From a virus, in the IMG/VR virus record IMGVR_UViG_3300020156_000051, positions 1 through 41,773 of that record: DNA of 41,773 nucleotides; one strand, 5' to 3'. How positions within the stretch are numbered: the stretch's first letter is position 1; every line of letters begins with the position of its first letter. Both the position numbers and the translations under genes were made by a program. The notes below the pieces were generated by a model. It worked only from the letters and a program-made list of their open reading frames with translations, had not been told where the DNA came from and made no database searches. This document shows, piece by piece, positions 3,859 to 39,407 of the stretch.

Positions 3859-4230
3859 TCATGATGATTCCTGACGTTCCAAACCGACAGCCTTGCGCAG
3901 CTCCCCGGCCTCCTCGTCGTCGACCAGCGTCACCAGTGCCGCGGCCATCGCGTTGAGCTTCTGCTGCACTGCGCGGTTCGCACGTTCCTGTGTGTTCTGC
4001 ATGAGCCCGACCAGCAGGAACGTGACGATGGTCGTGGCGGTATTAATGATCAATTGCCAGGTGTCGATGTCGCCGATGAACAGGATGCTCGGAGCCCATA
4101 CCGCGACCAACGCAACGCAGGCGGCGAAGAACCAGGCTTTGGCCGTCACCCGGGCGACCGCGTCGGCGAAGCGATCGAACACGCCGACATGGCCGCTGTC
4201 CTCACCGCTGGGCATCACGGAGTTGCTCAC
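3859..4230 (-). CDS. Low-affinity iron permease-like membrane protein, 123 aa
   Basis: Two hydrophobic segments (KAWFFAACVALVAVWAPSIL and INTATTIVTFLLVGLMQNTQ) with the linking DTWQLIINT are a close match to the bacterial low-affinity iron permease family (PF04120). That family also has W-Q-L-x-I-N-T-x-T-T-I-V-T-F followed by Q-N-T-Q and a soluble helix. The start is GTG at 4230, overlapping the upstream stop as GTGA, with GGAGG upstream. Its place between the 66-aa gene and the Acb2-like gene is unusual for a metal transporter; in a phage the fold may have another membrane role. Confidence 0.75.
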   Translation of the reverse strand: MSNSVMPSGEDSGHVGVFDRFADAVARVTAKAWFFAACVALVAVWAPSILFIGDIDTWQLIINTATTIVTFLLVGLMQNTQERANRAVQQKLNAMAAALVTLVDDEEAGELRKAVGLERQESS

Positions 4231-4427
4231 CGAGCCACCTGCCTCCGCGGCATCCGGTACAGCGCGACGTAGCTGCGCCGGAACCCGACGCAGACGCCGT
4301 CCACCACATTCTCCCGGTTGAGTACCCGGCTGACGTGGAGCCCGTGCCGACCTTCCTTCCGCTTGCCCAGACCCAGGAGCAGTTCCCAGCCCCGGGCTCG
4401 CATGGCCTTGTGACCCTTGATCATCAC
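4227..4427 (-). CDS. Small basic protein of unknown function, 66 aa
   Basis: Very rich in Arg, Lys and Gly, with no recognisable domain. Either the GTG at 4427 (GTGA overlap with the portal stop) or the ATG at 4424 (TGATG overlap) can serve as start; AGGAGAAG lies upstream of both. It is coupled to the portal on one side and the iron permease-like gene on the other. No function assigned. Confidence 0.6.
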   Translation of the reverse strand: MMIKGHKAMRARGWELLLGLGKRKEGRHGLHVSRVLNRENVVDGVCVGFRRSYVALYRMPRRQVAR

Positions 4428-6025
4428 TGCTTCTCCTGTCGATCTTGCTTGAGCTGTTCGAGCGCCGGGCTCGTGCCTTGTGCGCGGAGTTGCTCACGGT
4501 TAATGGGACGGCCGTTCTGTTTCGCCTCGACGAGGTCCTTGGCCGCGTTCACGTTATCCGTGATCTGGCCATCCGGGGACGCACTCTCCTGCTGCGTCCG
4601 GCCGAGGAGCTCGGCCTGCTTACGCCGGAACTCGGCCTGCTCGGCGAGCAGCTTCTCGACCTTCTCGTCCGGCAGATCGAGGAACTGGCTCACGCGCTCG
4701 ATGAGCAGGTCCAGGAAGCCCGGCGGGACACTCACGTTCTGCGCCGAGCCGAGTTGCTGGAGCATCTGCATGGCCTTGTCGCTCTGCTCCTGGCCCATCT
4801 GCTCGAACACGAGCCGGGGGATGGCCGCATCGTGCCCGAAGTTCACCCGCACGAGCGGGGCGATGAGCTGGTCGTTGACGGTCGCGGCCAGCTCTTTGGC
4901 CGCGGACTGCCGACTGGTCAGAAACAGGCCAGATTGGTCCGCGCTGAGCGCGTAGGAGCCGATGCCGCGGGTCGCATTGCTGGTCAGGTCCAGGAACCCG
5001 GCCAGCACGCTCTTGGTCATGCACTGCTCGAAGTACTGGACCGCCTCGGCGAACTGGGCGGCGCCGGAGCCGGAGGTGTCCAAGGTCTCGAACAACTTGA
5101 TCGTGGGGTCCAGGCCGCCGTCCCGGGCGACGCCGACGACGCCGGAGCCGCGCAGGCTCGCGATCGTCCGCGCGAGCTTGTTCGCCTTGCCGTCGTCCTC
5201 GCCGTACGCGACGACCTTGGGCTGGCTCTGGCCGTCGAGGAACGTGGCCCAGAGCATGAGGATCTTCTGCTGCATGGTCCAGGCCCAGTGCGTCACGGCC
5301 AGGTCCGACGTGCCGTTGATCGGGTCCCGGTGCTGTCCGTGGATGTGCACGACGGCACGGGAGGCGGGGATCCGGACGTACCCGTAGTCCAGATCGTCAT
5401 GGGAGCCGACCTGGGCGATGTCCCGGTCCTGGCCCAGCTCCATGGCCGTCTGCCAGTCGATGTACTGCCGGAATCCGCGTAGCTCCCCGGACACGCGGTG
5501 CCGGATCGCCTCGCAGGTGGACGGGGGCCGCCACGCAACCTGCGAGTATCCGACCCGACCGTCCTTGCGGCGGTCGAACACCAGCTCGTGAAAGGTCTTC
5601 TTGCTCACGATCGCGTACGCCATCTGCGAGACGACGGCGACCAGGTCCGGCTTCATCCCGGACGTCTGGCCGGAGCTGTAGAGGACCTCACGCACGAACT
5701 CGGTCTGACCCTTGTCCTTCTCCGGCTTCTCGATCGTGAGGTTCGCCGAGCGGAGCGGGAGCGTGAGCCCCTTCTCGACGGCCGCGGGCTGGCCACCGCG
5801 GTCCAGCATCCGCTCGACATCGGCGATCCATTCCCGGTCCGACGGCGCGACGACCAGCTCCCGGTCGTCATACAGGTCCGTCCACGGGCGCTCGGGGCGC
5901 TGCCAGTCAAACGGGGTACCGCGCTCCAGCCCTTCGGCGCGGACGGCTTCCTCCTTGGACAGGACGACCGTCGGGTCTTCCTCACGCGCCTGGGTGCGCG
6001 TCACGCCTCCGGATCGCTTCGCCAT
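4424..6025 (-). CDS. Portal protein (DUF935-like), 533 aa
   Basis: The sequence follows the Mu gp29/DUF935 type of portal: an N-terminal WIADVERMLDRGGQPAAVEK segment, a tract of alternating helices, the central ISKKTFHELVF-like stretch (VSKKTFHELVFDRR), RAVVHIHGQH, and a helical C-terminal region rich in Gln and Glu. The portal dodecamer forms the DNA entry vertex and is the docking site for terminase. ATG at 6025 overlaps the terminase stop by one base (TGATG) and has AGGAG at correct spacing; an ATG at 6043 inside terminase lacks a ribosome site. A MuF gene downstream supports the call. Confidence 0.88.
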   Translation of the reverse strand: MAKRSGGVTRTQAREEDPTVVLSKEEAVRAEGLERGTPFDWQRPERPWTDLYDDRELVVAPSDREWIADVERMLDRGGQPAAVEKGLTLPLRSANLTIEKPEKDKGQTEFVREVLYSSGQTSGMKPDLVAVVSQMAYAIVSKKTFHELVFDRRKDGRVGYSQVAWRPPSTCEAIRHRVSGELRGFRQYIDWQTAMELGQDRDIAQVGSHDDLDYGYVRIPASRAVVHIHGQHRDPINGTSDLAVTHWAWTMQQKILMLWATFLDGQSQPKVVAYGEDDGKANKLARTIASLRGSGVVGVARDGGLDPTIKLFETLDTSGSGAAQFAEAVQYFEQCMTKSVLAGFLDLTSNATRGIGSYALSADQSGLFLTSRQSAAKELAATVNDQLIAPLVRVNFGHDAAIPRLVFEQMGQEQSDKAMQMLQQLGSAQNVSVPPGFLDLLIERVSQFLDLPDEKVEKLLAEQAEFRRKQAELLGRTQQESASPDGQITDNVNAAKDLVEAKQNGRPINREQLRAQGTSPALEQLKQDRQEKQ

Positions 6026-7749
6026 CAGAACTCCTGACTCCACTGGTGGAAGGATGCGGACTCACCGGCGCCGAAGGCGATCGCCCCCGGCCCGCCGACG
6101 CCGGGTTCGTAGTTCTCCAGCTCGGCGGTCTGGTGGAAACGGTACGTCTCCAGCAGGTGCTGAGCCTCGGTGGTCGTGCGGGTGTCGCTCGCGCTCTCCG
6201 GACTGGTCCACGTCGACAGCACGGCGTCGGCGGTGTCCGTCGAGCGGCCGAGCCGCTCCTTGATGTCGTCCTTGCTCTCGACCTTGATCTTGCTGGACGG
6301 CGTGATGTCCCAGTGCGGCGCCGCCAGCTCGCCGATCATGTCGTCGTCCGGCGGCAGGCACACGTCCGGGTCGAACGCCGGGTCAAGGAGCTCACGCATC
6401 CCCCACCACATCTCGGCGCGTCGGTTGTGGAACCCGAGCTGCGTCGAGCGGTCCTTCTTCCAGCTCTTCTTGCTCGCGGTGAAGGGGCGGACGTTCAGGC
6501 CGCGCTCACGCGCCTGGTCGAACACGCCGCCACCGACGCCGACGACGTCGATCACGGCCTGGTCGCCGGGCTTCATCCGGACCTGGATCGCGGCGACGAC
6601 GGCCGTGGTGCTGGCGGTGTTCAGCTTGTCGATCTTCTCGATCACGCTCCCCCGCCGCCGGGCGATCGCGGTGAGGTCGGCACCGCCGCGGGCGACGTCG
6701 ACACCATGCACGAGCGTGGTGGCCTGCTTCCGGCCGCCGGTGCGCTTCCACTCGTGCCAGCGCTCCACCGCGGCCTCGATCCAGCTCAGCGGGATGACGG
6801 CGTCGTCGGCACTAGCGTGGAACTCACCCAGCACGCGGTTGGCGTACAGCGCACTGTCCGGACCCCACTGCCGCTCGCGCGCAGCGCGCCAGTCCTCGGA
6901 GATCCGGCCGCAGGCCATGACTTCGCTGACCTTGACGTGCCGGACCTTCCAGTCCTCGAACCCGGGCTTACGGACGTGGATGTCGTAGAAGCGCCCGTTC
7001 GGCTCGCCCGGCGTGGATGTGGCGACGGCGAGCGCTTCCAAGCCGCGCTTCTCCGGCGGCGTGGTCGGCCGCTCGCCGGTGGATCCCATGGCACCGGAGA
7101 ACGCACCTTCCGCGGCGTCGAACACCGCGGGCCGGATTGCCTTGGACTCGTCGAAGATGTACAGAACGCGGTCCGCGTGCACACCCTCGATCTTCTTCTC
7201 GTCCGAGCTGGCGACCGCGAAAGCGCTACCGTATTTGAGGTTCAGACTCAGCGCGAGCAGATCCTGACCATCGCGCCAGGGCGTCATGCCGAGCTTGTCC
7301 CAGCGGATCTTGCGTGACCACTTCTTGATCTCAGGCCAAAGGTAGTGCTCCAGCTGACGCCACGCGCCCGCGGTCGTCGCACACTTCCAGTCCTTCTTCG
7401 CGGCCTCACTGGTGATCGCGAACCAGATCACGGTGAGCGCGTTAGTGGTCGTCTTGCCGAGACCGTGAGGACCGCGCACGGCCATCCGGCCGTGCTTCGG
7501 GAGATCGTCCATGATCTCCTGCTGGTACTCGGTCAGACCCGCTTCAGTTCCTTCGGCAGGCGTGCCGAAGTCGATGAATTCGGTGACGAATCCGACAGGG
7601 TCGTCGTAAAACTCGATGACCGGAATGGCGACGTTTTCGAACGCGTCGGCGGCAAAAGCGAACGGGTCCTGTTCGGACACAGCCATGCCCTGGTCCATGC
7701 CCGGAGTCCAGCTTTTCGCCCGCATTCTCTCATGGTAAGCGGCGATCAT
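6025..7749 (-). CDS. terL: Terminase large subunit, 574 aa
   Basis: ATP-driven DNA packaging motor and headful nuclease. Walker A is GPHGLGKT (residues 93-100), Walker B VLYIFDES (195-202), and a coupling motif AVATSTPGEPNG follows near 241. The RNase H-like nuclease carries GVDVARGG (Asp351), IDVVGVGGG (Asp401) and DTADAVL (near 505-510). The longest ORF starts at 7749, two bases after a terminator stem and inside a TATGAT -10-like hexamer, and it has no Shine-Dalgarno; internal ATGs at 7725, 7698 and 7686 are therefore plausible true starts. The portal gene overlaps its stop by one base. Confidence 0.93.
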   Translation of the reverse strand: MIAAYHERMRAKSWTPGMDQGMAVSEQDPFAFAADAFENVAIPVIEFYDDPVGFVTEFIDFGTPAEGTEAGLTEYQQEIMDDLPKHGRMAVRGPHGLGKTTTNALTVIWFAITSEAAKKDWKCATTAGAWRQLEHYLWPEIKKWSRKIRWDKLGMTPWRDGQDLLALSLNLKYGSAFAVASSDEKKIEGVHADRVLYIFDESKAIRPAVFDAAEGAFSGAMGSTGERPTTPPEKRGLEALAVATSTPGEPNGRFYDIHVRKPGFEDWKVRHVKVSEVMACGRISEDWRAARERQWGPDSALYANRVLGEFHASADDAVIPLSWIEAAVERWHEWKRTGGRKQATTLVHGVDVARGGADLTAIARRRGSVIEKIDKLNTASTTAVVAAIQVRMKPGDQAVIDVVGVGGGVFDQARERGLNVRPFTASKKSWKKDRSTQLGFHNRRAEMWWGMRELLDPAFDPDVCLPPDDDMIGELAAPHWDITPSSKIKVESKDDIKERLGRSTDTADAVLSTWTSPESASDTRTTTEAQHLLETYRFHQTAELENYEPGVGGPGAIAFGAGESASFHQWSQEF

Positions 7750-7752
7750 AGG

Positions 7753-7795
7753 AAAACCCGGCTCCAGGAGCGGCCTGAGCTCCTGGAGCCGGGTT
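7753..7795 (-). terminator. Strong rho-independent-type terminator before terminase
   Basis: A perfect 17-bp stem, AACCCGGCTCCAGGAGC (7755-7771) with its complement (7779-7795), closes a 7-nt loop. In the minus-strand direction the stem is followed by TTTTCC. It should end transcription of the recombination operon just before the terminase gene, so late transcription must start downstream of it or read through it. Confidence 0.85.
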
Positions 7796-7798
7796 CAA

Positions 7799-7890
7799 GG
7801 GGCATCCCCACGCCCTGCCATGCAGGACCATTACACCACAGTGCTGGCGCCGTCCCATTCCACTAGGAGTTGCCAGCACCAGCACTGTGG
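7799..7890 (-). other. Densely structured non-coding leader with two competing stems
   Basis: Between the 7938 stop and the terminator are three further dyads: GGGG-CAT-CCCC (7799-7809), CCTGC-CAT-GCAGG (7814-7826), and a larger one in which 7841-7847 can pair either with 7872-7879 (GTGCTGGC/GCCAGCAC) or, as 7836-7847, with 7879-7890 (CCACAGTGCTGG/CCAGCACTGTGG). The two large stems exclude each other. No ORF or tRNA fits here. Position next to terminase suits a packaging-site or attenuator role; this is inference. Confidence 0.6.
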
Positions 7891-7937
7891 AGCTTCACAT
7901 CCGGGCTCAACGACCTGACCCTGGAGAAGGACTCAGC

Positions 7938-8849
7938 CTACATCTGCTGGAGCCTCGCCTGAAGGGCCGCGACGCTCTGATCCGTCACCGCGCCCGGAGC
8001 CGCCGGTGCCTGGGGCATCTGGGGAGCCTGCGGTGCCGCCGGTGCCTGGGGCGCAGCGGGCGCCTGGGGCATCTGCGGGACGGCCGGAGCCGCGGGCATC
8101 TGCGGCACCTGGGGCGCCGCCGGGGCCTGCGGAACAGCCGGAGCGGGCGCCTGCGGCACCTGGGGCGCCGCGGGGGCCGCCGGGGCCTGCTGGAACTGCG
8201 GAGCCGCCGGAGCGGCGGCCGGAGCCTGGGGCATCTGCGGCACCTGAGGCGTCGCCGGAGCCTGGAACTGCTGCGGAGCCGGAGCCTGGGGCACCGCGGG
8301 CGCGGGCGCCTGCGGGACCTGGGCCTGCTGCGGTGCCGGACCGGCGAGCCCCTGGATCTGGACCGCGCCGGGCGCCGGGGGTGCCTGGGGGACGCCCGCC
8401 GCAGCCTGGGCCGCCGCCCATTCCGCCTCCTTGACCGCCTTCAGGTCCGTGATGAACGTCGGGTACGCGTTGAACCAGTCGCTGGCGTACTGGAGCACCG
8501 GACCTTCCAGCGCCTGCGGCTGGATGTAGGTGTTCCCGCCGCCCTGGGGCGTGACCTCGACGAGCATCACCGGAAGCGGCTGGTTCGTGCCGACGTACTG
8601 CTTGAAGCCGTCCCGGACCGCGCCGCCCATCCAGAGGACGCTGATATAGCCCTGGTTCGTGGTGAGGTCCACGACATCGACGATGATGCCCTCGCCGGTG
8701 CCCTGGGGGTTGTGCTTGGTCTTGAGCCCGGTCTTGTACTCGCGCGCCCAGACGAGCAGGGGCTTGTTCAGGTTCATGTTCGCCTGGAACCGGTCGCCGC
8801 CCTGGACCTGCGGCTTGACGAAGGTGCCGAGACTGTTCGGAGCCGTCAT
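7938..8849 (-). CDS. Possible ssDNA-binding protein with Pro/Ala/Gln-rich tail, 303 aa
   Basis: The first about 145 residues look like a compact beta-rich domain: MNLNKPLLVWAREYKTG, GIIVDVVDL, ISVLWMGGAV, LPVMLVEV. This is compatible with an OB fold. From about residue 150 on it is an extended low-complexity tract of P, A, Q and M (units such as QMPQAPAAP), ending VAALQARLQQM. The gene is the last of the operon with the Cas4-like nuclease and helicase, where actinophages often keep a single-strand binding protein. The DNA-binding role is inferred from fold impression and context; no diagnostic motif is present. Confidence 0.6.
   Translation of the reverse strand: MTAPNSLGTFVKPQVQGGDRFQANMNLNKPLLVWAREYKTGLKTKHNPQGTGEGIIVDVVDLTTNQGYISVLWMGGAVRDGFKQYVGTNQPLPVMLVEVTPQGGGNTYIQPQALEGPVLQYASDWFNAYPTFITDLKAVKEAEWAAAQAAAGVPQAPPAPGAVQIQGLAGPAPQQAQVPQAPAPAVPQAPAPQQFQAPATPQVPQMPQAPAAAPAAPQFQQAPAAPAAPQVPQAPAPAVPQAPAAPQVPQMPAAPAVPQMPQAPAAPQAPAAPQAPQMPQAPAAPGAVTDQSVAALQARLQQM
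7970..8400. repeat. Imperfect GC-rich repeats encoding a P-A-Q-M tail
   Basis: About 430 bp of degenerate short repeats (units around GGAGCCTGGGGCATCTGCGG) inside the 3' part of the 7938-8849 gene. They encode repeated QAP, PQMPQ and APAAP blocks. Such tracts are prone to slippage and length change. Confidence 0.75.
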
Positions 8850-8867: not shown

Positions 8868-9665
8868 TTACATTTTCACGTTCCCGGGGCAAGTGACCCC
8901 GGAATCCTGGCCCGGACGGAACCACGGGCAGTACTGACACTCGTCCGATGGGAACTTCCGGAACTCGGTGAAGCGAATGGGATCTCCGAGCGGGTTCAGC
9001 AACTTGACCAGCTGAGCGATGATCTCCAACCGCTCCAACGCCTTGTACACAATGGACGGATTGAACGGCTCCGACCAGACGTACATGGACTTGGTGAGGT
9101 AGTTGTGTCGCGGGTAGAGCGCGATGGCGATGAGATCCACTTCGTAGCCCTGTCGGACCATCCCGAGCCCGTAGGCATGACCCTGAACCCGGTACCCGGT
9201 CTTCGGGCCGTGCTTCCGCGTCTTCTCCTGCGACGTCTTGCCGACCAGCTTGTGGTCCAGCACCATCCGTTTCCAGATGTTGTACGCGTCCGTCGTGCCG
9301 GTGATTCCCGGCGCGACCTCCACGCGGTGCTCGATCAGCCACGGCGGCGAATACCCCGCGGCCTTCGCGAGGTTGTTCTGCTCGGCCAGCGCGTCCGCGA
9401 TGATCGCGTGAATCCCGGTGCCGAGCATCGCGAACCATGGATCGTCCACAAAGGATTCTGGTTCAGGAAAACCCGATATCTTGTACGCCAGCGACCGGTC
9501 GCACGGGTCACCGATCTCCGACGGGCCGAGCGCCTTCTGCATGGTGCGCGGCCGTCGTTTCTCGTGCTCCAGAAGGATGTCCACGAGAAGATCGCGAACC
9601 TCGGTGTTGCCACCGTTCTGGGTGCCACGGGGAGACTGGTACGTGCCCAGTTGCGGGACGGTCAC
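8868..9665 (-). CDS. Cas4/RecB-like PD-(D/E)XK exonuclease with Fe-S cysteines, 265 aa
   Basis: Hallmarks in order: an early cysteine in GPSEIGDPCDRSLAY, GTGIHAIIADAL (the His motif), GTTDAYN and MVLDHKLVGK (catalytic Asp and D-x-K), then CQYCPWF and GVTCPG near the C-terminus. One N-terminal plus three C-terminal cysteines is the Cas4-type iron-sulfur arrangement. The enzyme probably resects DNA ends for phage recombination. I place the start at GTG 9665, a GTGA overlap with the upstream stop, rather than the longer ATG at 9704. Confidence 0.85.
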   Translation of the reverse strand: MTVPQLGTYQSPRGTQNGGNTEVRDLLVDILLEHEKRRPRTMQKALGPSEIGDPCDRSLAYKISGFPEPESFVDDPWFAMLGTGIHAIIADALAEQNNLAKAAGYSPPWLIEHRVEVAPGITGTTDAYNIWKRMVLDHKLVGKTSQEKTRKHGPKTGYRVQGHAYGLGMVRQGYEVDLIAIALYPRHNYLTKSMYVWSEPFNPSIVYKALERLEIIAQLVKLLNPLGDPIRFTEFRKFPSDECQYCPWFRPGQDSGVTCPGNVKM

Positions 9666-9907
9666 GTTTCCACCGAGCCGGTACAGCGGTATTGGAGCTT
9701 CCACGAGTCATCGGTGTCCCACGGCTCTTCGGGGTACCACTTGCCGTCCATGCCCTGAGCTTCCCACGTGTACTCGGGGGCAGGAAGACCTCGGTCATAG
9801 AAGGCTTTCCTGAGCTTCGTCTCCGTGGCCCGTCGAAGGTCCACTGACGACTGACGCATCGCGGCCCTGGTCACCAGTACCGCGAGCGACCACAGTTCCC
9901 CGGTCAC
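9662..9907 (-). CDS. Unknown protein, 81 aa
   Basis: GTG start at 9907 overlaps the upstream TAG (TAGTG) and has GGGAG upstream. An N-terminal helical half (ELWSLAVLVTRAAM, then LRRATETKLRKAFYDRG) is followed by a Trp/Tyr/Glu-rich tail (WEAQGMDGKWYPEEPW). No family recognised. It is coupled on both sides within the recombination operon. Confidence 0.65.
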   Translation of the reverse strand: MTGELWSLAVLVTRAAMRQSSVDLRRATETKLRKAFYDRGLPAPEYTWEAQGMDGKWYPEEPWDTDDSWKLQYRCTGSVET

Positions 9908-10895: not shown

Positions 10896-12770
10896 TTACC
10901 GCGCAAGGAAGAGCCTAGCAGAGTCCTTAGCCCCAGCGGTAATCTCATCGGCAAATTTATCCACTTTCCTGTGCCACTTGGCCCAGGTGATGAAATCGGA
11001 CACCTGGCCACGGTAGTGGTACTCCTCGAAGTCCACGTTTGCGGTCAAACTCTCGGCGTACTCGATCTGTCCCTCGGACGCGGGCTTGCGTCGCCAGTGC
11101 GCGTCCGGGTCCACCTGGAACCGTTCCATCGCCTGCTCGACGATGCCCAGCGTGAGGTCGATCGCGTACCGGGTGGCGTCAGCGTCGTCGGAGAACGTCT
11201 CCAGGATCTTGGTGGTGACGCCGGTCAGCTCCAGGCCGACCACGAACGTACCGTCGTCCTGTTCGGCGACGACGACGAACCCTTCCTGCTTGGCCTGGGT
11301 CTCCAAGTGGATGAACCAGCGGCCCTTGATCGTGTGCAGGAACCAACCCCGGCGCATCGGAACGTGCTTGTATCGGCGCTTCAGCTTGAGCTCGCGCTCT
11401 TCCTCCTTGCGCTGTCGCTCCAGCTCGCGTTGGCGGGCCTGCTCGGCGAGCTCCTCATCCGAGAGCGGTTCACCGGTGGCCCTACGCGGTCGTCCGCGAT
11501 TCCGCTCGATCTCCCACGGGTCGATGTCGACGGCGATCAGCGAGCCGGACACCAGCCCATCGCCGTCGGCCGTCGGCTCCCGCGGGCCGCTCTCGGCGAT
11601 CGCCCGGCGTGCCGCCTGGTCGATCGTCTCGCCCTCCTGAGCCTCGATCGCGAGATCTGTGACGTCGTTCAACGTGCGCAGGTCGTTGCGCCCGGTCGCA
11701 CCGACAACATCGAGCACGAGGCAGTCGGTCTTGCCCGGATGCAGCCGCAGGCCGCGACCGACCATCTGCCGAAAGAGGGTCTTGCTCATCGTCGGCCGGG
11801 CGATGACAATGCAGCTCGTCCGCGGAGCGTCCACGCCTTCGCCGAGCAGCGCGGCGTTGGTGATCACCTGGATCTTGCCCTCGGCGTAGTCGGCCAACGC
11901 CCGGCGGCGGTCGCGCGCCGAGGTCTTGCCCGACAGCATGACCGCGGTGATGCCAATCTGCCGGAACGCCTCGGCGACGTGCTCGGCGCTGGCGACGGTC
12001 GGCGTGAACACCATCCCGGCGCGGTCGCCCGCGTGCTTGGCGTACGCCGCTGCGACGACGCCGGGCGCTCCGGCGCGGTCCATCGCCTCGCCGAGGTCGG
12101 CCGCCGCCAGGTCCTTACCCCCGGCGAGCCGGGACATCGGGATGCCGGACAGGTCCAGGCCCTCGATCAGGACCCGCTTGAACTTCGGCGGTGCCAGGTA
12201 GCTCATCCCTGTGACAGGGTCCGGCAGGATCAGGTCCACGATGTCCAGGGAGAACGGTACGGCCTGGTAAAAATCCGTGAGCCGCTTGGAGTCCTCCCGG
12301 GTGAACGTCGCCGTCACGCCGAGCGTGTACGGGCCATCCGGAGCCAAGCAGCCCAGCCTCTCCAGCAGGGCCAGATAGCTCGTGCCCATGCTGCGGTGGC
12401 ACTCGTCCACGATCACCAGTCCGAACCTCGGCAGACGCGCGACCCGACTCTCTCGGACGAGTGTCTGCTGACTGGCCACGATTACTGGGTGATGGACTTG
12501 GTTGCGAGCGGCCTTGACGATGCCGACGCGCAGATCCGGCGCCCAGAGCTGGATCTTCTCCGCGGCCTGGCTGAGCAGCTCCTCGCGGTGCGCGAGCACG
12601 AGTACGGGGTATGGGCCGACAACCTCGCGGAAGTGGCGGATGATCTCGGAGAACACCACCGTTTTCCCAGCGCCGGTCGGCAGCACGAGCGCGAGCCGCC
12701 GGAGTCCCGCCGCCCAATCACGGAACACGTTGTCCCGCGCCTCGATCTGGTACGGACGAAGTATGGTCAA
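10896..12770 (-). CDS. Superfamily 2 DECH-box helicase, 624 aa
   Basis: Motifs in order: LRPYQ at the N-terminus (Q-like motif), Walker A PTGAGKT (31-37), VLAHREEL (Ia), VIVDECHRSMG (motif II, DECH at 122-125), GVTATF (motif III, TAT), TNAALLGEGVDAP (motif V) and QMVGRGLRLHPGK (motif VI, near 335-347). This is a RadD/SSL2-like DNA helicase architecture with an Arg/Glu-rich linker after 480. The start is TTG at 12770, a TTGA overlap with the upstream stop, with GGGAGGGAG ideally placed; upstream in-frame codons overlap the previous gene. Confidence 0.9.
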   Translation of the reverse strand: MTILRPYQIEARDNVFRDWAAGLRRLALVLPTGAGKTVVFSEIIRHFREVVGPYPVLVLAHREELLSQAAEKIQLWAPDLRVGIVKAARNQVHHPVIVASQQTLVRESRVARLPRFGLVIVDECHRSMGTSYLALLERLGCLAPDGPYTLGVTATFTREDSKRLTDFYQAVPFSLDIVDLILPDPVTGMSYLAPPKFKRVLIEGLDLSGIPMSRLAGGKDLAAADLGEAMDRAGAPGVVAAAYAKHAGDRAGMVFTPTVASAEHVAEAFRQIGITAVMLSGKTSARDRRRALADYAEGKIQVITNAALLGEGVDAPRTSCIVIARPTMSKTLFRQMVGRGLRLHPGKTDCLVLDVVGATGRNDLRTLNDVTDLAIEAQEGETIDQAARRAIAESGPREPTADGDGLVSGSLIAVDIDPWEIERNRGRPRRATGEPLSDEELAEQARQRELERQRKEEERELKLKRRYKHVPMRRGWFLHTIKGRWFIHLETQAKQEGFVVVAEQDDGTFVVGLELTGVTTKILETFSDDADATRYAIDLTLGIVEQAMERFQVDPDAHWRRKPASEGQIEYAESLTANVDFEEYHYRGQVSDFITWAKWHRKVDKFADEITAGAKDSARLFLAR

Positions 12771-12964
12771 TTCTCCCTCCCGCAATCGCACACGGACCCA
12801 CTGCCCTTTCGTCGGCGGTAATAGTGCGGAGCATCCAAGTGTGCGTGACTTAGACACGCGTATTCGACGTATCCCGCTTGCTCGTGCCCGAGCGGCGCAG
12901 AATCGGAAGGGCAAGGAGTGTTCACCGGAGCTGATCTGCTCTTCTTGAACGGGTTGATCGGCAT
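12767..12964 (-). CDS. Small Cys/His (zinc-ribbon-like) protein, 65 aa
   Basis: Conserved-looking metal ligands: PCPSDSAPLGHEQAG, EYACLSHAHLDAPH and a final SVCDCG. The ATG lies immediately after the TAA of the preceding gene and its stop overlaps the helicase start. Likely a zinc-binding accessory protein; exact role unknown. Confidence 0.7.
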   Translation of the reverse strand: MPINPFKKSRSAPVNTPCPSDSAPLGHEQAGYVEYACLSHAHLDAPHYYRRRKGSGSVCDCGREN

Positions 12965-13231
12965 TTACTTCGCCAGCCCCTCGACGATCAGCTGCCGGAT
13001 CCGGGACACCGTGATTATCGGCGTCCGGCCGCGGGACGAATTGGCCTCGGCGTCGTTGCACGCGTTAAGCAGCTCGATAAACGTGTCCCTGGCCTCGCCT
13101 GCGAACTGATTCAGCCACGGCTCGTAGCCAAGACTGCTGAACTCGCCCAGGTCATGTGTCTCATTTAGCTCCTGGCCGAAGTACTGATCAACCACTTTAC
13201 GTGTCGCTCGGTCAAAATTCTCTGTGACCAT
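12965..13231 (-). CDS. Unknown helical protein, 88 aa
   Basis: Acidic N-terminal half with ETHDLGEFSSLGYEPW, then a helix (AGEARDTFIELLNACNDAEA) and a hydrophobic end (ISRIRQ-like VSRIRQLIVEGLAK). ATG overlaps the upstream TAA by one base (TAATG). No family recognised; cotranscribed with the helicase. Confidence 0.68.
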   Translation of the reverse strand: MVTENFDRATRKVVDQYFGQELNETHDLGEFSSLGYEPWLNQFAGEARDTFIELLNACNDAEANSSRGRTPIITVSRIRQLIVEGLAK

Positions 13232-17137: not shown

Positions 17138-17175
17138 CACGTTGACCCCGAGGTGGACGTCTCGGGGTCAACGTG
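17138..17175 (+). terminator. 15-bp perfect hairpin before the primase gene
   Basis: CACGTTGACCCCGAG (17138-17152) pairs perfectly with 17161-17175 around an 8-nt loop. There is no U-run after it, so it may be a U-less actinobacterial-type terminator, an mRNA stabiliser or an attenuator separating polymerase from primase expression. A GTG start for the primase at 17173 would lie inside the stem. Confidence 0.55.
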
Positions 17176-21749: not shown

Positions 21750-21777
21750 TTCCGATCCGGAGTGATGTCCGGACGGT

Positions 21778-21806
21778 GGCCCGGGAGTTGACGCTCCCGG
21801 GCCTTT
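21778..21806 (+). terminator. Rho-independent terminator of the replication operon
   Basis: GGCCCGGGAG (21778-21787) and CTCCCGGGCC (21794-21803) form a perfect 10-bp stem with a 6-nt loop, followed by TTTGTC. It ends the rightward operon 28 bp after the last stop codon. Confidence 0.88.
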
Positions 21807-21874
21807 GTCATGTCCAGAGGTGGTCTAAACCAGTGACTAGTCCATTTGACCTAGGGAAGCGCTGGAAGCACCCC

Positions 21875-22040
21875 GGAATCACGAGGCGGAATCACGAGGA
21901 ATCGCCCAGCGTGTTCGTACGGGCACTATGTGATCGTGATTCCCGGAAGCTGCTTCCGTACGTGCTTCCTCGTGATTCCCTGATCATGAAAAGTGCTTCC
22001 GTTGCAGGTCAGCTCGTGATTCCGCGTTTGTCGTGATTCC
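21875..22040. repeat. Iteron-like array, unit CTCGTGATTCC
   Basis: Copies: 21875-21885 and 21888-21898 in inverted orientation (GGAATCACGAG, 13 bp apart), then TCGTGATTCC at 21934-21943, CTCGTGATTCC at 21969-21979 and 22013-22023, and TCGTGATTCC at 22031-22040. Related GTGCTTCC variants lie at 21962 and 21993, and a CGGAAGC-T-GCTTCCG palindrome starts at 21944. Together with the second cluster this resembles a phage or plasmid replication origin. Confidence 0.7.
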
Positions 22041-22519
22041 GTACGCCGACCCATACCCCCATCCCCGGGGGAGGAGCGTCAGCGACTCCCGGAGGGGTGG
22101 GTCCAGCCCGGAGGGCCGTGCGCGTGACGCAGGCACGTGTACGCGTACGACGTACGAGGCGCGTACACGTACGCGAGGCGGCGTTCCCGAGGTCGTCCAC
22201 GCCGGGCGAAGGAGCTCGATCCCGCCGGTCCGCGGATGCTTCAGGCCGTGCGTCGTGATCCTCCGGCTGGCGATAGCGAGAGGCCGGGCGCTGAGAGCGT
22301 TTCTCCCGCGTTGGAACTCGTTCGCCGGTACATCGACCCTGGGAAGCCCGTTCAGCTCGTCTCCGGCACGACTGGACGGGCAAATGGATGCTTCCCGAGG
22401 TACGTGGGAGCCGCATTCCCGGCTCTGAGCGGTCTCTGGAGCCCTGAACCACCGGCCAGCCGATTCAGGCCGGGAACGAGCGACCTGAGCCCGCGCCTTC
22501 CGGCCGTGCGACGTCACCC

Positions 22520-22590
22520 CTCGTGATTCCGGCTCGTGTTTCCGAAGGCTGCTTCCGTGATTCCGCCGCAGGTCACGACGTGTTTCCGCG
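22520..22590. repeat. Second iteron-like cluster
   Basis: CTCGTGATTCC at 22520-22530, CTCGTGTTTCC at 22533-22543, CCGTGATTCC at 22555-22564 and CGTGTTTCC at 22579-22587, all in direct orientation, followed within 40 bp by an AT-rich stretch (AAAACGGAAATTTG and AAAAAA near 22640-22665) that could be an unwinding element. Confidence 0.65.
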
Positions 22591-22727
22591 GTTCGCTGAC
22601 GCGTTCTCCAGAGCTCCTCGGATTCCATGATCAACTAGGGAAAACGGAAATTTGTACGCGCAAAAAAGTGCCTCAGGCGCCAGCTCCCCAGGTTCTGAAC
22701 AAACAGGCCGGGGGGTCTCTTCGTTAC

Positions 22728-22774
22728 TTGACAACGATCACTGTGCGTGAGCCTAAGGCTCAACCTCAGGTTGA
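22728..22774 (+). promoter_or_regulatory. TTGACA hexamer with two overlapping 15-bp palindromes
   Basis: A consensus -35 (TTGACA, 22728-22733) is followed by TGAGCCT-A-AGGCTCA (22748-22762) and TCAACCT-C-AGGTTGA (22760-22774), sharing TCA. A -10 is weak (TAAGGC at 20-bp spacing). Downstream there is no gene before the terminator at 23291, so any transcript would be a roughly 540-nt non-coding RNA. Confidence 0.45.
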
Positions 22775-23234
22775 GAGTTCATGACGCATAGGCACATGTG
22801 CATGTGACACACAGTGATGGTGTGCCGTAGGCGCATGGATACAGGATCGTGATCTGTGTGGGGTGTACACAGTGGACAGTGCACGAGCGTGTGTCCACAT
22901 AGGACACATGTACCAGTGCAAGCCCATGCACTTGTGCACGTAGATGTAACAGTGCTGTTGCGTCGTGGAGGGAGTACCTAGGTGCCTCTGGTACAAGTGC
23001 CCCGTCCCTGCGCCCCCTGCTTCCACGTACCCCACCCACCGCAGTACGGCGCCCCCGAGTACCCGCGTCCCTCAGCACCCCCGTACCAGGGAGCCCCATC
23101 TGGTAACCTCGATTACCGCCTAGAATCGCCCCTCAGGCACCCTGAGCACCCTTCCTGATACAGGACACCCACCCCCTGGGAAAACGCCCCTCAGAGGCAC
23201 ACTCAGCACGCCGTGCGCAGGTACCCTGGTGCAC

Positions 23235-23279
23235 GCCCCTCGGTACGCGCTATCCCGGGTAGTGGCGTACCAAGGGGCT
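23235..23279. repeat. Large dyad with CCCGGG centre
   Basis: GCCCCTCGGTACGC pairs with GCGTACCAAGGGGC (13 of 14 positions), separated by 16 bases that contain CCCGGG. It lies 12 bp before the terminator and could form a cruciform or a second transcription stop. Confidence 0.6.
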
Positions 23280-23290
23280 CGGACACGACG

Positions 23291-23324
23291 AAACCGGGCA
23301 CCCTGTTCGGGTACCCGGTTTCTC
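23291..23324. terminator. Bidirectional terminator between converging operons
   Basis: AAACCGGGCACCC (23291-23303) and GGGTACCCGGTTT (23309-23321) form a 13-bp stem with one mismatch and a TGTTC loop. It is followed by TCTCT on the plus strand and preceded by an A-run that supplies a short U-run for the minus strand. It can stop rightward transcripts from the non-coding region and leftward ones from the accessory genes. Confidence 0.8.
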
Positions 23325-23363
23325 TGTGCCGTGTGTTCGATTGCCGATCCGGTCAGGCCGTGC

Positions 23364-37670: not shown

Positions 37671-38453
37671 TTATACGCCGTCACGCATCGGCGGTTGTTC
37701 GATCTGCATCACAGACTGCGGTTGGGTGAGCTCGCGCAGGACCCGGGGTACGACCTGAGGGATCAGACGGCGCTGCTCCACCGTCAGGCCGAGCGCATCG
37801 AAAATCTGGTTCAGGGCACCGACCAAGTTCATGCCCTGTTCCCGTGCCAGCCGGACCCTTTCCTCAGCCACCCCGGCATCAAGCGCCGTCTTCGCGACCT
37901 TGGTGAGCAGGATCCGTTCCTTGTGGTAAAGCTCCAGCCACTCCTGCTCGACCGCGGTCAGTGCGCGGAGTTTCTGGTCCTTGCCCTGGCCCTCGACGAG
38001 CTGCCAGAAGTTGATTCGGTCGGCGATCCAAGCGACGTGTCCCCCGGCGCGACGGACCTCTTGCAACAGTGCCTCGTGCGGGTCAAGGTCGATTGGCCCG
38101 CCGTACCCGTAGCTGTTTGTCATGCGATCGATGATCTCCCCACCCATGTAGCGCGCGGCGTTCGTCCGCAGCGTCGGCGTGTTCCCGCCGTGGAAGGAGC
38201 ATCGGCCCCAGCCTTCATGATCAGTGCGTTGCCCCGCTGGTAGCTGGCAGTGCAGCCCATTCGACTTCTCCGCGTAGCAGATATTCTGGCCCTGCTCGTT
38301 CTTCGGGTGCTCCCGAAACGTCGCGCTGTCCTTCTCCGCTCTTGCGGGGTCGGTTTTTCGCGCCGACTGCCGGTTGACCTCGGACGGCTTTTCCGGGTTG
38401 TTCTGCCAGCTCTTGTTCGTTGTCCGCGGATGCTTTCTCTTCTGTGGCGGCAT
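37671..38453 (-). CDS. terS: Terminase small subunit-like protein, 260 aa
   Basis: Basic N-terminus followed by a Cys/His cluster (QNICYAEKSNGLHCQLPAGQ, EGWGRCSFHGG), then helices LYHKERILLTKVAKTALDAG, EERVRLAREQGMNLVGALN and VEQRRLIPQVVPRVLREL. This combination (zinc-like cluster plus helices with an A-L-x-A-G-V-x-E-x-x-V motif) is typical of actinophage small terminases, which recognise packaging sites. It lies far from the large subunit in this window. ATG 38453 has GGAGGAG; the first 77 codons overlap the WhiB-like gene in another frame. Other DNA-binding roles are possible. Confidence 0.68.
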   Translation of the reverse strand: MPPQKRKHPRTTNKSWQNNPEKPSEVNRQSARKTDPARAEKDSATFREHPKNEQGQNICYAEKSNGLHCQLPAGQRTDHEGWGRCSFHGGNTPTLRTNAARYMGGEIIDRMTNSYGYGGPIDLDPHEALLQEVRRAGGHVAWIADRINFWQLVEGQGKDQKLRALTAVEQEWLELYHKERILLTKVAKTALDAGVAEERVRLAREQGMNLVGALNQIFDALGLTVEQRRLIPQVVPRVLRELTQPQSVMQIEQPPMRDGV

Positions 38454-38841
38454 TTTTCTCCTCCTGCACCCGCTTAGTCCGCTGCTTCTCCACCATAGCT
38501 TGGTTGATCAACCGTCCACCATGGATTCCCGTCTGCTCGGCTTCGAGCGCCTCGGCGAAGCAAGCTTCCCGGACCGGGCACGGATTGTCGAACCCCGGCG
38601 CCCCGTTGCAGATCCGCAGTGCCTTCGCCTCACGGTAATTGATCTCTGCGATCTGTGCGGGCGTCTGGCCCACCCGGCTCTGATACAGGAACAGGTCGCC
38701 GTCGGCCGGGGTGCACTTGGCGGCTTCCCGGATCACGTAACCGAGCTTCGGCCGATGCAGCCAGGGCGGCAGGGTCACCTTCCGGCCACCCGCGTCCGGG
38801 AACAGCCCTCGGAACCCTTCCAGCCCGCCGCGCCGCGTCAC
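38221..38841 (-). CDS. WhiB-like iron-sulfur protein with long C-terminal tail, 206 aa
   Basis: Core: AAKCTPADGDLFL, then ALRICNGAPGFDNPCPVREA, then CFAEAL and GIHGG. Four Cys with a G-x-x-G-G turn is the WhiB [4Fe-4S] family, here with the Cys-x8-Cys insertion common in phage versions. WhiB proteins are actinobacterial redox-sensitive regulators that bind sigma factor. GTG 38841 overlaps the upstream stop (GTGA). After the core a charged tail continues for about 90 residues and overlaps the terminase-like gene by 233 bases. Confidence 0.82.
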   Translation of the reverse strand: MTRRGGLEGFRGLFPDAGGRKVTLPPWLHRPKLGYVIREAAKCTPADGDLFLYQSRVGQTPAQIAEINYREAKALRICNGAPGFDNPCPVREACFAEALEAEQTGIHGGRLINQAMVEKQRTKRVQEEKNAATEEKASADNEQELAEQPGKAVRGQPAVGAKNRPRKSGEGQRDVSGAPEERAGPEYLLRGEVEWAALPATSGATH

Positions 38842-39407
38842 GAACCACCTCGCTGGCACTCCGGCTGGAACTGGAAGCACACGCGCCCGGTCACGGGATC
38901 GTAGTTGAAGACCGTGAGCTCCTCGTCGAACGTCAGGCCGGTCTCGGCGAAACACTGGCTCGCCGTCCCGCGGCATGTCGCCGCTGGCGCCTCCTGAATC
39001 GATTCAGGAAGGGAGGTTTTCGGCGGCGAAACAATCCGGTCAGCCGATGAGCCCGGGGAAGTCCGTGAGCGGCCGGTCGATGCGGCCGTGGACGGGGCAG
39101 CGGACGCCACCTTCCGGAACGAACTCTTGGGGGACGAGGATGAAGGTCTCTGGACGGGGGCACTCGCAGAGGGCTTCTCCACCACGATCACAGGGGCCGT
39201 CGGGAGGGAAGTCTCGATCGTTGAAAGCGGCCAGGGCTGTTGCAGTGAACTGCTCTCGGGGTGTGCGGGGGTCCATGCGTCTGCCTCCGGAGTGTCGCGC
39301 TGAAACAGGGCGATGACGGCGAGCAGTGCCGTCAGGATCGGAACAAGCAGTATCTGGGCGCCGTGGTAGCGCGGACTGCGTACCCTCGGCTTGTAATGCT
39401 TTCCCAT
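38838..39407 (-). CDS. Membrane-anchored Ser/Pro-rich protein, 189 aa
   Basis: Basic start (MGKHYKPRVRSPRYHGAQ), one transmembrane helix (ILLVPILTALLAVIALF), a long Ser/Pro/Thr/Ala linker and a C-terminal domain with ATCRGTASQCFAETG and VTGRVCFQFQPECQRG (four Cys). ATG 39407 follows a GAGG. Inside its linker another frame encodes the 78-aa gene, so the linker may partly reflect that gene's shadow. First gene after the 39445 promoter. Confidence 0.55.
   Translation of the reverse strand: MGKHYKPRVRSPRYHGAQILLVPILTALLAVIALFQRDTPEADAWTPAHPESSSLQQPWPLSTIETSLPTAPVIVVEKPSASAPVQRPSSSSPKSSFRKVASAAPSTAASTGRSRTSPGSSADRIVSPPKTSLPESIQEAPAATCRGTASQCFAETGLTFDEELTVFNYDPVTGRVCFQFQPECQRGGS
39040..39276 (-). 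CDS. Nested Cys/His protein, 78 aa
   Basis: A separate frame inside the membrane-protein gene, with GGAGG well placed before ATG 39276 and GC-rich third codon positions. GPCDRGGEALCECPRPETF and VRCPVHGRIDRPLTDFPG give four Cys and a His, a likely zinc ribbon. It is probably the better-supported coding frame in this stretch. Confidence 0.65.
   Translation of the reverse strand: MDPRTPREQFTATALAAFNDRDFPPDGPCDRGGEALCECPRPETFILVPQEFVPEGGVRCPVHGRIDRPLTDFPGLIG

Follow-up and report, generated by a model that had tools for sequence, protein, structure and literature searches.

A conserved terminator-like hairpin and a probable leaderless terL promoter at a likely early/late operon boundary of an uncultivated phage

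Why should several inverted repeats be crowded into the short non-coding region directly before the terminase gene of a virus? The DNA examined here (the window) is a virus record of 41,773 bases for which a DNA-level search finds no close match among annotated phages. The original prediction placed four dyads with mutually exclusive stems at positions 7753-7890, and suggested that they might form a transcription attenuator or antiterminator target for the late genes, or else the cos/pac site. The surrounding genes lie on the minus strand, so that it is the RNA read from this strand that matters here. On its upstream side the region is bordered by a replication/recombination block that includes a DEAD/ResIII helicase (10896-13061, minus), a Cas4-like exonuclease (8868-9704, minus) and, as its last gene, one for a Pro/Ala-rich protein of 303 residues (7938-8849, minus; phrog_14234, E 3.5e-21). 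Beyond an intergenic region of 212 nt lie the terminase large subunit gene terL (6025-7725, minus; 566 residues, phrog_2, E 1.2e-33) and the next gene of the structural operon, which encodes the portal protein (4424-6043, minus; PF06074, E 8e-35, phrog_113). Gene content therefore switches across the site, with exonuclease and helicase before it and terminase and portal after it. The same gene series is encoded in relatives, and five relative records have an orthologue of the Pro/Ala-rich gene immediately 5' of terL. A protein with a membrane domain of the low-affinity iron permease type (PF04120, phrog_3485) is encoded at 3859-4497 (minus), just past the end of the portal gene.

The best annotated relatives of the terminase, at 45-50% identity, are those of Actinoplanes phage phiAsp2 and Streptomyces phage TurkishDelight, and because these are its closest annotated homologues the host of the phage is probably an actinobacterium. 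Elsewhere in the window, the product of 38221-38976 (minus) weakly matches a PHROG for a WhiB-like transcriptional regulator (E 1.7e-5), which fits such a host.

The most prominent structure in the region is a hairpin at 7755-7795 (minus), the arms of which (7755-7771 and 7779-7795) are found by repeat search to pair perfectly over 17 bp around a loop of 7 nt. This is the longest perfect stem, for loops of 3-45 nt, in the whole 41.8-kb window, and 20 dinucleotide shuffles of the window yield no stem above 14 bp. Relative to dinucleotide shuffles, the fold of the 193-nt leader has a z of -6.7 for the minus strand and of -7.3 for the plus strand, and the 78-nt segment containing the hairpin has a z of -4.8, consistent with a stable, GC-rich hairpin on the transcribed strand. 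The stem is followed by TTCCTATGAT, and the RNA after it reads UUCCUAUGAU, with 5 U in 10 nt. Term-seq in Streptomyces shows that terminators there have 3-4 U in the next 10 nt and the longest and most stable hairpins (PMC12207403), and the tail seen here is U-enriched in this sense. A simple terminator scan does not list the site; the scan is geared to tails like those of E. coli, and the site would fail a rule of that type. Another stem, a perfect 15-bp hairpin (CACGTTGACCCCGAG/CTCGGGGTCAACGTG) at 17138-17175, lies just before and overlaps the start (17173) of a listed primase/helicase open reading frame.

Comparison with related phages, which had been proposed as a way of looking for compensatory changes, reveals them in this stem. 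A strong hairpin of different sequence occurs at the same distance before terL in all six close relatives compared (L003, L004/L116, L006/L118, L008/L151, L115 and L119), whose TerL proteins are 55-65% identical. When the stem arms were registered by hand and joined by a dummy loop, with L119 shifted to its own register, an arrangement that tests pairing given those stems and is not an independent alignment, 98% of cells paired over 12 stem pairs in the five distinct sequences from the window and the six relatives, and 8 of these 12 pairs were altered on both sides. None of 500 shuffles reached this level of compensatory change, and sliding the registers lowered the paired fraction to 32-48%. 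Moreover, the hairpin segments of the window and five relatives are individually stable (z = -3.5 to -5.8). The remaining relative, L116, fails on the 78-nt test segment; here the 3' half of the terminator is duplicated and the complete hairpin lies just upstream. In this phage (positions 2742-3000; G001) terL is preceded by 256 nt of intergenic DNA, an 11-nt repeat, ATCGGCTAAGC, recurs about 120 nt apart, and the duplication takes in the spacer as well as the terminator 3' half. The prediction of a terminator at this place is hence upheld, in that the 17-bp stem is real, conserved and compensated in relatives, and located at the border of the early and late genes. These features suggest an intrinsic terminator of the Streptomyces type, although the conserved hairpin could instead protect a 3' end after Rho-dependent termination.

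The same comparison bears on where terL begins. The terminator had been described as ending two bases before the longest terminase open reading frame, but 5 bases separate the stem from ATG 7749, and the 574-residue frame that opens there is merely the longest possible one. TerL proteins of the close relatives, which begin MRAKS or MRSKS, align from residue 1 at the codon that matches ATG 7725, from which the window protein starts MRAKSWTP and is 64-65% identical to its relatives from residue 1 onwards. Judged by these alignments, the true start of terL is ATG 7725, 29 nt past the terminator stem, and not ATG 7749.

With the start placed at ATG 7725, a promoter-like box becomes apparent in the interval between hairpin and gene. 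In all of the relatives TACG[AC]T precedes the ATG by 7 nt. Each of the six relative records contains a single instance of the pattern TACGNTN7ATG, every time at terL, and the reversed control pattern does not occur in any of them. The window has TACCAT (7732-7737, minus) separated by 6 nt from ATG 7725, a spacer one nucleotide shorter than that of the relatives, and MAFFT places this hexamer in the same columns as their TACGAT or TACGCT. In Streptomyces the -10 consensus is TANNNT, and 20-22% of mRNAs are leaderless with a preference for AUG (PMC8780764, PMC6742748); a TANNNT element about 7 nt before an AUG start is present in the window and in all six relatives. The TAC box may thus represent the -10 element of a leaderless terL promoter. 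Efforts to recognise a -35 element (BTGACN) about 17 nt upstream were unsuccessful; at this spacing the window reads CGGGTT and the relatives GGGGTT, a hexamer that forms the end of the terminator 3' arm. The -35 element is described as less conserved in Streptomyces (PMC8780764). A rival -10, TATGAT at 7745-7750 (minus), looks better than TACCAT, and would allow a short leader. When viral contigs were scanned for the promoter pattern with TACGATSATCNNNATGCG, 76 stretches were returned, with relatives already known among them. A literature search for late promoters or terminators of this kind in Streptomyces phages returned nothing specific.

Taken together, we regard it as very probable that the site is an ordinary boundary between early and late operons, at which a terminator is followed by a probable leaderless terL promoter. 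RNA polymerase moving along the minus strand would leave the replication/recombination block, with its genes for helicase, Cas4-like exonuclease and Pro-rich protein, and would terminate on meeting the 17-bp hairpin and short U-rich tail (7795-7755). Transcription would then begin anew under the -10 element TACCAT (7737-7732; TACGAT in relatives), 17 nt past the hairpin. With its first base on the terL ATG at 7725, or no more than one or two bases away, the mRNA of the structural operon would be leaderless. Because the 3' arm of the terminator sits where the -35 would be, terminator and promoter would be packed together. In an uncultivated phage of a probable actinobacterium, early and late transcription would thus be separated by a terminator immediately before an apparently leaderless terL promoter, an arrangement kept by phages whose TerL proteins are only 55-65% identical. 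The order GC hairpin, about 17 nt, TACGNT, N7 and ATG may serve as a late-promoter signature for this phage group. This reading calls for no new mechanism.

The remaining dyads belong to DNA that the relatives lack. Five of these have a compact intergenic region of 81-106 nt, versus 212 nt in the window, and an excision scan over lengths of 80-129 nt, scored against these five, shows that similarity is best restored by removing the roughly 103-nt segment 7797-7899 (minus), the summed score being 297 as against 111.5 without excision. This window-specific segment contains the large dyad (7836-7890, minus), in which two 15-nt arms (7836-7850 and 7876-7890) flank a 25-nt loop. Repeat search shows 14 of the 15 arm positions to be Watson-Crick pairs, the single mismatch becoming G.U on the minus-strand RNA, and a perfect 12-bp core lies within. 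The segment also holds the two small hairpins, CCTGC-ATG-GCAGG at 7814-7826 and GGGG-ATG-CCCC at 7799-7809 (both minus). The 17-bp stem and the large dyad are genuine members of the predicted group of four, whereas the two small hairpins, whose loops read CAT on the plus strand, exist but are at chance level: hairpins with 5 bp and a 3-nt loop number 88 in the window and those with 4 bp and a 3-nt loop 241, or 0.3 and 0.8 expected per 138 nt. Neither the large dyad nor the small hairpins are conserved in the relatives, and this is half of what the original prediction had named as counting against it, the other half being genome ends that map elsewhere.

Searches with the segment and its dyad were uniformly negative. 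Segment 7797-7899 has no meaningful DNA match in 8 relatives, annotated phages, plasmids or 296 actinobacterial genomes (the last searched without a positive control), the dyad core is absent from the viral contigs searched, and Rfam covariance models give only chance-level miRNA matches. An insertion with target-site duplication was considered and rejected, since the imperfect 10-nt direct repeat at the borders, TTGARCCCGG, lacks statistical significance (64 of 300 shuffles). The minus-strand string TGGTGTAATGG had hinted at a tRNA or a tRNA-like RNA, and this was likewise discarded; ARAGORN and Rfam report nothing, and near-copies of the string are at chance level. The site evidently tolerates extra DNA, because L116 carries a different long intergenic region there. 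The large dyad is a lineage-specific addition, which most likely would act as a tandem or backup terminator or as a hairpin stabilising the 3' end, or would simply be a tolerated insertion. A second, upstream terminator is the simplest functional guess because the large dyad is trailed by UGUAAUGGUC, with 4 U in 10.

Other roles for these dyads have to be weighed against the reading of the site as a terminator followed by a promoter. The large dyad might be a DNA operator or small palindromic element with a role independent of the terminator, an idea that we consider unlikely while giving it more weight than any other alternative. It draws support from the perfect core, from the absence of the whole segment in relatives and from the different extra segment that L116 has in the same intergenic region. 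Against it, the window has no second copy beyond chance, so that a repeated operator was rejected, and a dispersed element was rejected because no copy turned up in viral contigs, phages, plasmids, relatives or the 296 actinobacterial genomes; the flanking repeat is not significant, and a 25-nt gap is long for a single repressor dimer. A further reading, rather improbable, is that the late operon has newly gained segment 7797-7899 as a control element, in which a regulator-binding dyad, as DNA or RNA, would tune the pair of terminator and promoter in this lineage only. Attenuation or antitermination, in which alternative leader folds or a phage or host protein bound to the dyad RNA would decide passage into the late genes, is less probable still. 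Several stems do stand in series before a terminator at the entry to the late genes, and 7920-7926 offers a 7-nt complement to the terminator 3' arm. In addition, the pairing behind the proposed mutually exclusive stems exists, as an 8-nt alternative stem (7841-7848 with 7872-7879) detected by repeat search that arises because 6 nt are duplicated in tandem at 7873-7884 (CCAGCACCAGCA). Calculated pair probabilities for the minus-strand RNA are nevertheless 0.98-1.0 for the long dyad stem, about 0 for the short alternative and at least 0.94 for the terminator. Enforcing the alternative costs 9.2 kcal/mol, and unpairing the terminator 5' arm costs 24.5 kcal/mol without any strong replacement stem arising. 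The leader fold contains no competing anti-terminator stem that overlaps a terminator arm, so that with an alternative of almost no probability and no replacement for the terminator arm, no attenuation-like switch is visible. The dyad is, moreover, missing from relatives that retain the terminator, no Rfam element is detected, and the conserved promoter-like box downstream of the terminator implies that terL need not be reached by read-through.

Packaging sites often lie near terminase genes, and the dyads adjoin terL, which is the argument for their being recognition or cutting sites of the terminase at the genome ends. This proposal is the least probable of all. The window, G001-G005, L003 and L115 each cover the region in an unbroken contig, and the dyads within 7797-7899 are not conserved, unlike a site that would be expected to be shared by a 65%-identical terminase. 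Closures of the relatives' contigs lie elsewhere. G001 (60,386 bases) carries the same 127 nt in direct orientation at both ends, which marks it as a circular assembly; it closes about 19 kb from terL, and 127 nt is a common assembler k-mer length. G002 (59,210 bases; IMGVR_UViG_3300003320_000767) has a 14-nt direct terminal repeat, ACGCAGAGTCGTGC, about 17 kb upstream of terL, which may represent either a cohesive end or an overlap left by the assembly; joining its ends across this repeat gives a sequence whose alignment to G001 has no gap at the junction, and the 127-nt repeat of G001 is elsewhere. These observations leave a cos/pac site at 7753-7890 unsupported, although virion ends could still differ from contig closures. 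The homologue of the closures in the window falls within 20.3-26.3 kb, which includes a non-coding stretch at about 21.8-23.3 kb. At 21760-23330, two converging gene blocks are separated by some 1.5 kb in which no gene is obvious and which holds many GGAATCACGAG/CTCGTGATTCC-like repeats; both blocks end in hairpins that have short tails containing T (at about 21780-21810 and 23290-23322). The contig junctions of two relatives fall in or near the homologous interval, which is a candidate replication origin or packaging region.

Among known systems, lambda-type Q antitermination and leader attenuators place a terminator ahead of late genes, and so does the window, which differs in having no alternative fold, a conserved promoter-like box after the terminator and a dyad that is not conserved. 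The terminase regions of phiAsp2 and TurkishDelight contain the closest annotated TerL homologues. Their terL genes, however, overlap a preceding small gene, annotated as an HTH protein in TurkishDelight and as a putative terminase subunit in phiAsp2, and this intergenic boundary is absent; a literature search on packaging in the two phages returned nothing helpful. Closer likenesses are offered by intrinsic terminators of the Streptomyces type, which are very stable, long GC-rich hairpins that lie in a 3' UTR and are followed by few U (PMC12207403, PMC8780764, PMC6742748). The window has 5 U in 10 nt compared to the reported 3-4, and its hairpin stands about 140 nt past the stop codon in contrast to a reported median of 66-76 nt to the transcript end; in the compact relatives the hairpin begins about 15-40 nt after the stop codon. 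Finally, although the -35 is unrecognisable here, with the terminator 3' arm in its place, the putative TAC[GC]NT element 6-7 nt before ATG resembles leaderless actinobacterial promoters, which combine a TANNNT -10 with a 5' UTR of 0 nt and an AUG start (PMC8780764, PMC6742748).
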